Shown in pieces: positions 34,863-51,525 of a stretch of DNA of 64,000 nucleotides. The translations under genes were made by a program, and so were the position numbers. Source of the stretch: Rhodobacterales bacterium. Its GTDB lineage: Bacteria; Pseudomonadota; Alphaproteobacteria; Rhodobacterales; Rhodobacteraceae. Numbering within the stretch: the first letter of the stretch is position 1; every line of letters starts with the position of its first letter. Below the pieces are notes generated by a model, which saw nothing but the letters and a program-made list of their open reading frames with translations, ran no database searches and was not told where the DNA came from. The stretch spans positions 1-64,000 of the forward strand of contig JAACUH010000065.1 in the NCBI GenBank assembly GCA_009993005.1, in the 5' to 3' direction.

Positions 34863-35045
34863 TCAGGCCGCCTTGTCGCGAAAGCTCTCGTGGATGTAGC
34901 GGCAATCGCAATAGGGGCACTCCACCGTGCCCGTCTCATGCGGCAGCGACAGCCAGACGCGCGGATGGCCCAGTGCGCCGACGCCGCCATCGCAGGAAAC
35001 GCGCCATTGGCTGACATATTTGGTCTCGGGTGCGGGAAGGGTCAT
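34863..35045 (-). CDS. CHCC zinc-finger protein (NDUFS6-like)
   Basis: This 60-residue protein has Cys18 and His27 (CDGGVGALGHPRVWL) and Cys43 and Cys46 (GTVECPYCDCRYI), the zinc ligands of the zf-CHCC domain of mitochondrial complex I subunit NDUFS6. Alphaproteobacteria keep a free-standing homologue, presumed to act in complex I assembly or stability. It is a very small gene but the motif is diagnostic. Its stop lies six bases after the convergent stop of the secreted-protein gene. Confidence 0.9.
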   Translation of the reverse strand: MTLPAPETKYVSQWRVSCDGGVGALGHPRVWLSLPHETGTVECPYCDCRYIHESFRDKAA

Positions 35046-35143: not shown

Positions 35144-35167
35144 AAGAATTTTCGTACGAAAATTCTT
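35144..35167. repeat. Perfect 24-bp palindrome, left copy
   Basis: Both arms match at every position (AAGAATTTTCGT / ACGAAAATTCTT), centred on CGTACG. It is strongly AT-rich in a GC-rich genome. It lies between the zinc-finger gene start and the HIT gene stop, two bases from a second palindrome with the same core. Confidence 0.9.
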
Positions 35168-35169
35168 GG

Positions 35170-35193
35170 AGGATTTTTCGTACGAAAAATCCT
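35170..35193. repeat. Perfect 24-bp palindrome, right copy
   Basis: The arms AGGATTTTTCGT / ACGAAAAATCCT match perfectly and share the core TTTTCGTACGAAAA with the left copy; the two centres are 26 bp apart. As RNA either copy forms a long hairpin, so they might terminate the HIT transcript (minus strand); as DNA they could bind a dimeric regulator of the zinc-finger gene. Confidence 0.9.
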
Positions 35194-35219
35194 GCCCCGC
35201 CGGGGACGCTGCGCCGCGC

Positions 35220-35579
35220 TCAGGGCAGCATGCGGCCCAGCGACCGGCCGCCGAGGATATGCAGGTGGAAATGCGGCACCTCCTGCAGCCCGTCCTCGCG
35301 GGTGTTGGCGATGGCGCGGAACCCGGGCGCGAGCCCGCTGATCCGGCAGACCTCGGCCACGGCCGCCATGAACCCCGCCTGTTCTTCGGCGCTGGCCTCG
35401 GCCGCGAAATGATCGAGGCTCATGTAGGCCCCCTTGGGGATCACCAGCACATGCACCGGCGCCTGCGGATTGATGTCGTGAAAGGCGAGCGCATGGGCGT
35501 TCTCGAATACGGTCCTGTTGGGGATCTCCCCGCGCAGAATGCGGGCAAAGATGTTTTGCGGATCATAGGCATAGGTCAT
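35220..35579 (-). CDS. HIT family nucleotide hydrolase (HINT-like)
   Basis: This 119-residue protein carries the histidine triad HFHLHIL (His103, 105, 107) and the N-terminal FARILRGEIPNRTVFENAHA pattern of the HINT branch, which hydrolyses nucleoside phosphoramidates. Length and motif spacing are normal. It is cytoplasmic. It lies 11 bp downstream of the glycosyltransferase gene on the same strand, so the two are probably co-transcribed. Confidence 0.95.
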   Translation of the reverse strand: MTYAYDPQNIFARILRGEIPNRTVFENAHALAFHDINPQAPVHVLVIPKGAYMSLDHFAAEASAEEQAGFMAAVAEVCRISGLAPGFRAIANTREDGLQEVPHFHLHILGGRSLGRMLP

Positions 35580-51484: not shown

Positions 51485-51525
51485 CGCTTCATCTTGCCAT
51501 AAATATCCCCGCCGGAGGCACCTGC
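51485..51525 (-). repeat. Dispersed intergenic repeat, copy 5b (inverted)
   Basis: CGCTTCATCTTGCCATAAAT then ATCC is the reverse complement of the copy 5a core with two mismatches over 24 bp; the arms are 11 bp apart (51450-51473 and 51485-51508). The pair can form a long hairpin that may terminate ffh transcription. Confidence 0.75.

Follow-up and report, generated by a model that had tools for sequence, protein, structure and literature searches.

Tandem palindromes behind a HIT-domain gene belong to a dispersed REP-like element that may act on RNA at cistron ends in Rhodobacteraceae

What are two adjacent palindromes doing behind the gene for a HIT-domain protein in a member of the Rhodobacterales? 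They lie in the window, the 64,000-nucleotide stretch of contig JAACUH010000065.1 that we analysed. The initial annotation described them as perfect 24-bp palindromes with a shared CGTACG core, and the letters of the window confirm this. The left one reads AAGAATTTTCGTACGAAAATTCTT and the right one AGGATTTTTCGTACGAAAAATCCT, both are perfect, and the spacer between them is GG (Table 1). The core TTTTCGTACGAAAA begins at 35149 and at 35175, and the palindrome centres are 26 bp apart. Searching the window with up to two mismatches returned the core at those two positions only (0.01 expected by chance; two occurrences in 0 of 100 shuffles). Being palindromic, each unit reads alike on either strand.

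Table 1. The tandem palindromes and neighbouring features, in window coordinates.
Feature	Positions	Strand	Details
zf-CHCC zinc-finger protein gene, the next one downstream of the HIT gene and on its strand	34863..35045	-	PF10276, 3.1e-17; start 98 bp past the pair
Distal hairpin unit (farther from the HIT stop codon)	35144..35167	-	AAGAATTTTC-GTAC-GAAAATTCTT; stem 10, loop 4; -7.9 kcal/mol alone
Spacer between units, 2 nt	35168..35169	.	26 bp centre to centre
Proximal hairpin unit (nearer the HIT stop codon)	35170..35193	-	AGGATTTTTC-GTAC-GAAAAATCCT; stem 10, loop 4; -10.3 kcal/mol alone
Short GC-rich stem directly ahead of the pair on the HIT strand	35194..35207	-	GTCCCCGGCGGGGC; terminator-like consensus match
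HIT-domain protein gene	35220..35579	-	PF01230, 7.2e-20; 26 bp between its stop codon and the pair

The pair has many counterparts elsewhere in the genome, a draft of 3.40 Mb in 196 contigs that is 99.6% complete. The initial annotation had left room for the core being absent elsewhere; it occurs 54 times, mostly in tandem pairs, against 0 for the same pattern read backwards. The motif TTCGTACGAA gives 72 units (control, 0), and CGTACG-N16-24-CGTACG matches 32 places (control, 2), with a centre spacing of 26 bp in 31 of them and 27 bp in one. The 35 clusters that we examined cover 69 of the 72 units. Eighteen contigs (1,132,962 bp, or 1.13 Mb; 67.4% GC) were studied in detail and hold 55 perfect palindromes of at least 24 bp, 54 of them with a CGTACG centre; scaling from a chance rate of 0.80 per 3.4 Mb predicts about 0.27. 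These contigs also contain 29 tandem pairs whose perfect hairpins have stems of at least 8; 28 belong to the CGTACG family, 25 with CGTACG in both units. On its sequence, the window pair is no lone curiosity but a member of a dispersed family of REP-like tandem hairpins.

How the arms vary bears on what the units are. Despite 12 different arm sequences, 71 of the 72 unit instances (three being second readings of the same places, in L020 and L061) are perfect palindromes. We aligned 31 pairs from this genome, which make 19 distinct rows. In the two-hairpin structure 100% of the 380 cells are paired, and 11 of the 20 base pairs are changed on both sides. No shuffle among 500 did as well in pairing, in double-sided changes or in covariation score, the shuffles ignoring relatedness, and sliding the partners by 1–3 columns lowers pairing to 40–68%. 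The number of further pair types, one of five covariation measures, does not rise above the shuffles (14, against a shuffle mean of 16.9). Template-switch repair is a mechanism able to keep palindrome arms symmetric, and it could explain the symmetry of the arms as well as function does.

The loops vary as well. Hairpins of the same stem type in this genome also carry the loops GTC, GAC, GCA, TCC and GGA, and in relatives the stem is kept around GTCC, GGC, ATGC, ATTC, GCTC and ATAC. Among the places listed for Roseicyclus sp. Amp-Y-6 (G438) are GTAC, ATGC, GTCC, ATTC, GCTC and ATAC; in the closest relative by HIT identity (G006), GTC and GGC loops occur together in a pair upstream of cimA. Odd-length and non-palindromic loops break the dyad of the double strand and keep the stem, which is our main reason for preferring a single-stranded hairpin to a dimer site. 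The unit is thus best read as a hairpin. In G438, the genome of locus L237, contigs C4, C5 and C69 contain triple arrays of the same stems, about 31–33 bp apart and with differing loops.

Tandem dimer sites had been the first suggestion of the initial annotation, and we do not favour them. Operators for a dimeric DNA-binding protein, either a regulator or a nucleoid protein, with two dimers per site, would suit the perfect dyad, the TTCGTACGAA centre (invariant in copies found by that motif), the near-constant 26-bp spacing in this genome and the four copies in divergent gaps. In place of conserved half-sites about a fixed dyad centre, however, we find arms that change on both sides together into many sequences and stay complementary, and centres that vary in length and letters around a kept stem. 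The spacing is 27–38 bp in genomes other than this one, and 13 of the 31 placed copies lie between convergent genes. We regard operators as highly improbable.

Two further sources of pairing were considered and rejected. The outer flanks of 25 pairs are rich in G and C, with GGG upstream in 20 and CC downstream in 24, and they show no site-by-site covariation (mean complementary run 3.72, against 3.99 with partners shuffled). Complementary loops do not form a rule: GTC/GAC occurs twice and GAGC/GCTC once, with GCA/GTAC, GTAC/GTCC, GTC/GGC, GCGG/GCTT and others as exceptions.

With its flanks included, the window copy is predicted to fold at minimum energy into one long hairpin (-37.8 kcal/mol, z -3.85), and the same holds for many isolated pairs. 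Across the alignment, this long-hairpin reading pairs 88.3% of cells with covariation no better than shuffles, and we rejected it despite that energy prediction. For that copy itself, folding models make both the two-hairpin and the long-hairpin shapes possible.

If the units are hairpins, where do they sit relative to genes? We called genes with a simple custom codon-usage caller, not a standard annotator, and placed 32 clusters from the 18 contigs, odd-loop variants included. None of the 32 lies inside a called gene. Thirteen occupy convergent gaps, 16 co-directional and 2 divergent ones, and 1 is at a contig end; the 533 background gaps of at least 60 bp comprise 68 convergent, 328 co-directional and 137 divergent. 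The convergent excess (P = 2.5e-5) and the divergent deficit (P = 0.01) are both by Fisher test. Among the co-directional copies, 14 of 16 are closer to the 3' end of the upstream gene, and for 17 of the 30 copies with an adjoining 3' end the distance to the stop codon is at most 15 bp. Among called genes, the 3'-end bias is strong, not absolute. Four of the 35 CGTACG places in this genome fall in divergent gaps (by Pfam neighbours DUF2852/glnE, leuA-like/SDR, MTTB/guaA and slyX/hisS), and there a 3'-end role does not apply.

The 35 clusters include 17 co-directional places. We searched both neighbours of 15 in NCBIfam and treated the window's own place by Pfam, leaving out L036. Likely operon partners flank 7 of the 15. 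One pair begins 3 nt after the rpoB stop codon and ends 37 nt before the rpoC start; others separate ilvB from ilvN, trpF from trpB, gcvH from gcvP, and def from fmt (the deformylase being slightly below NCBIfam cut-offs and above Pfam's). The remaining two stand between two branched-chain- or urea-type ABC ATPases and between a molybdopterin oxidoreductase and an iron-sulfur subunit, both below NCBIfam cut-offs. The other eight places are flanked by a luxR/luxI-type pair (below cut-offs), cobT and a peptidase-like gene, ftsK-like and lolA-like genes, rpiA and glutathione reductase, and SDR and surE; at three, one neighbour is unnamed and the other is rlmN, a thiolase or xylose isomerase. Upstream of the gcv genes, at 929–1337 of L041, we also noted two tRNA genes and a glycine riboswitch (51.5 bits).

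The initial annotation had alternatively taken the palindromes for a double hairpin terminator of the HIT transcript. Two hairpins do lie downstream of the HIT gene; a strong terminator is another matter. A terminator or attenuator, possibly bidirectional, would stop transcription beyond the upstream gene, partly or completely, and the position after stop codons and the excess between convergent genes are what it would call for. At the window copy, the GC-rich stem in Table 1 is followed by TTTTT of the proximal unit, which supplies the T-run of the terminator-like match, and by visual reading several family members have a GC-rich hairpin and a short T-run at the same spot upstream of cimA. 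Terminator-like matches in the region are, however, about as frequent as chance predicts (8 found, 5.9 expected, s.d. 2.2), and the stems of the element are AT-rich. None of 25 pairs in this genome has 5 or more T among the 8 bases that follow it, whichever strand is read; the maximum is 3. With no U-tract after these 25 pairs and with copies splitting rpoB/rpoC, ilvB/ilvN, trpF/trpB and gcvH/gcvP, a strong terminator is implausible, and we find one between rpoB and rpoC difficult to credit. Termination or attenuation in general, partial termination included, seems to us unlikely.

We looked for the element in other genomes. The exact arrangement, two cores 26 bp apart, occurs in no other genome of the contig collection searched, and a search of PLSDB plasmids gave no match. 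With variable spacing, the core pair was found at 37 loci in a one-genome-per-species collection. Titles assign 35 to Rhodobacterales of several genera; the other 2 are unrelated Bacillota or Clostridiales MAGs. The Rhodobacterales comprise Roseicyclus MAGs and an isolate, Roseibacterium persicicum, LSUCC0031, HKCCE4037, Salipiger marinus, Salipiger aestuarii, a Pseudorhodobacter and a Rhodobacteraceae MAG. Placement was determined for 52 places in other genomes: the neighbouring genes are oriented -- at 21, +- at 17 and ++ at 10, none is divergent, 1 place lies within a called gene and 3 are at record ends. Salipiger marinus has just 4 TTCGTACGAA units, and one of its pairs, with different arms and a 29-bp spacing, lies between rpoB and rpoC.

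Among 24 loci upstream of cimA, 6 have a CGTACG pair, G434 has one unit, G006 has its GTC/GGC-loop pair, 14 have other sequence and 2 are uninformative. In further stretches that we read, G035 has 5 tandem hairpin pairs of other sequence in 400 kb, including one directly behind its HIT gene; G018 has 1 in 100 kb, and G049, G006 and G003 have none, again in 100 kb each. Hairpins of the form TTTTCNNNGAAAA exceed a read-backwards control in G020 (41 against 0), G006 (40 against 7), G031 (20 against 2), G019 (17 against 1) and the genome of the window (13 against 0), with 61 relatives scanned; the excess is absent in G018 (0 against 0) and G033 (18 against 22). Its presence in many family genomes is a hint of a wider class of such hairpins.

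Three intercistronic sites are orthologous among Roseicyclus and its neighbours: between crotonase and BKACE, between cysS and citramalate synthase, and between a dipeptide-type permease and an ABC ATPase. These genes were named by family search at one locus each and otherwise by likeness of their first residues. In all species pairs without L271 and L261, the palindromes differ at 0 of 44 letters, in a comparison biased by the fact that the species were found via patterns fixing 24–28 of the 44. L261 differs at 2 palindrome letters and L271 at 5; in L271, each unit has one base pair with both letters replaced, and an end pair of the first unit no longer matches. At shared amino acids, the following gene differs at third codon positions by 0.09–0.49, and spacers differ by 0–6 letters. 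An unaligned indel lowers some of the amino-acid identities in this comparison.

A selfish or passively copied repeat, of REP or MITE type, could also give rise to such a family; it would survive where it does least harm, at gene ends, and owe its symmetry to template-switch repair. The commonest pair (AAGAA... GC AAGAG...) looks like a product of copying, as the same 50 bp are letter-identical in 10 of the 31 aligned rows (L016, L019, L022, L023, L025, L028, L034, L037, L040 and L058). Counts of TTCGTACGAA range from 2 to 72 among 19 genomes. The one imperfect unit, AAGAA...CTCTT, combines left and right halves that come from two different common units and looks like the product of a deletion within a pair. 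Set against these points, the near-complete genome has no match to the Y1 (RAYT-type) transposase (PF01797 at E 0.001), for which 5 of 14 control genomes are positive. Site-specific arms are kept across diverged species at the three orthologous sites, as far as a motif-biased search can tell, and the same gene junctions in G006 and G035 are taken by hairpins of other loops or sequences. A purely passive origin is, in our judgement, doubtful.

Some further repeats were noted along the way. In 7 of the 10 rows with the commonest pair, an exact CCTCCGGCGGG box follows directly, as if the composite had been copied. At 2992–3133 of L060, a local duplication has left two identical hairpin pairs in a single convergent gap, 92 bp apart. 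The sequence CCTCCGGCGGGRNTATTT, found at 51501–51518 (-) of the window, has 115 copies in the genome (60 forward, 55 reverse; control, 0) and what comes after it usually resembles GGCAAGATGAAG, GGCCAAAAGATG or GGCACAAAGAAG. Fifty of its copies are in the 18 contigs, none of them inside a called gene.

Given these results, we favour, with a probability of roughly 0.55, a REP-like tandem stem-loop that acts on RNA at cistron ends as a barrier to decay, a brake on translation, or both. The pair would be transcribed behind the HIT gene and, after the last ribosome departs, the RNA would form either a pair of 10-bp stem-loops or a single long one. The folded pair may then set a boundary at which 3'-to-5' exonucleases, ribosomes reaching the upstream stop codon, or both are slowed, and neighbouring cistrons would be able to differ in mRNA lifetime or output. 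Built symmetrically, a single copy could serve both of two convergent transcripts.

Several observations weigh against this reading. Sixty family genomes have a HIT match, and of 30 HIT loci compared, the window's own included, the CGTACG pair is present at that one only; the 29 loci of relatives lack it, and G035 has unrelated tandem hairpins instead. The initial annotation had named lack of conservation at this locus as a reason for doubt, and the result does speak against the importance of this copy. In a sample of the family, pairs with CGTACG cores occur in only 7 of 394 genomes, this one among them. The four divergent sites, the duplicated commonest pair, the one covariation measure that fails and the long hairpin as minimum-energy fold count on the same side.

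Should this reading be confirmed, Rhodobacteraceae would have a REP-like element that punctuates RNA, placed even between core subunits such as rpoB and rpoC. Unequal amounts of product from one operon would become directly testable in this family, and many unannotated palindromes in these genomes would be accounted for. A bolder proposal, which we put forward as a long shot, is that tandem hairpins close to stop codons form a widespread layer in the Rhodobacteraceae, differ in sequence from lineage to lineage and determine how much neighbouring cistrons yield relative to one another, rpoB and rpoC included. This layer would be read by a dedicated RNA-binding or processing factor recognising the closed C-loop-G, and in some copies complementary loops (GTAC/GTAC, GTC/GAC, GAGC/GCTC) could kiss.

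Does the element correspond to anything described? Over the element itself, in 10 loci, Rfam 15 returned nothing above the gathering score; the matches there are to microRNAs only, at 24–30 bits against gathering scores of 83–92. In the open-licence PMC literature we recognised no description of the element, its core, CGTACGAAAA or the CCTCCGGCGGG box. RNase E and PNPase work has been published for this family (PMC7866481), and the accessible portions of that and another paper on Rhodobacter sphaeroides (PMC5089854) make no mention of such a repeat. Like intrinsic (Rho-independent, including bidirectional) terminators, the element is a hairpin at gene ends that convergent genes can share; unlike them, it has an AT-rich stem, no U-tract after the pair and sites between likely operon partners.

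The element resembles the REPs and BIMEs of gammaproteobacteria, described in the available text as dispersed extragenic hairpins, often doublets, in which complementary changes preserve the palindrome (PMC2817692). REPs at most 15 nt from a stop codon are reported, in the part of the source at hand, to down-regulate translation (PMC12306157). The present element likewise consists of dispersed extragenic hairpins in doublets, some close to stop codons, with many palindrome copies in this genome and, in the 31 aligned pairs, complementary mutations that preserve the stem. It differs in having fewer copies and head-to-tail palindromes mostly 26 bp apart in its own genome. By the definition in the accessible portion of PMC2817692, a REP has a GT(A/G)G head by a GC-rich imperfect palindrome; the aligned units are AT-rich, perfect and headless. 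Membership in the REP/RAYT system we rejected on the missing Y1 transposase. The element is therefore without two defining features of REPs, the head and the RAYT, and one of intrinsic terminators, the U-tract. A further parallel, by description and not by sequence, is the puf operon (pufBALMX) of Rhodobacter capsulatus, where an intercistronic hairpin is associated, in the text available, with differing lifetimes of neighbouring cistrons (PMC5927463, PMC3997798). That stem-loop, an mRNA decay terminator, belongs to a single operon and is not dispersed; the element shares with it a place between cistrons, at 7 of the 15 named co-directional places, the operons being predicted. Going by sequence and position, we class the element as a kind of intercistronic repeat stem-loop.
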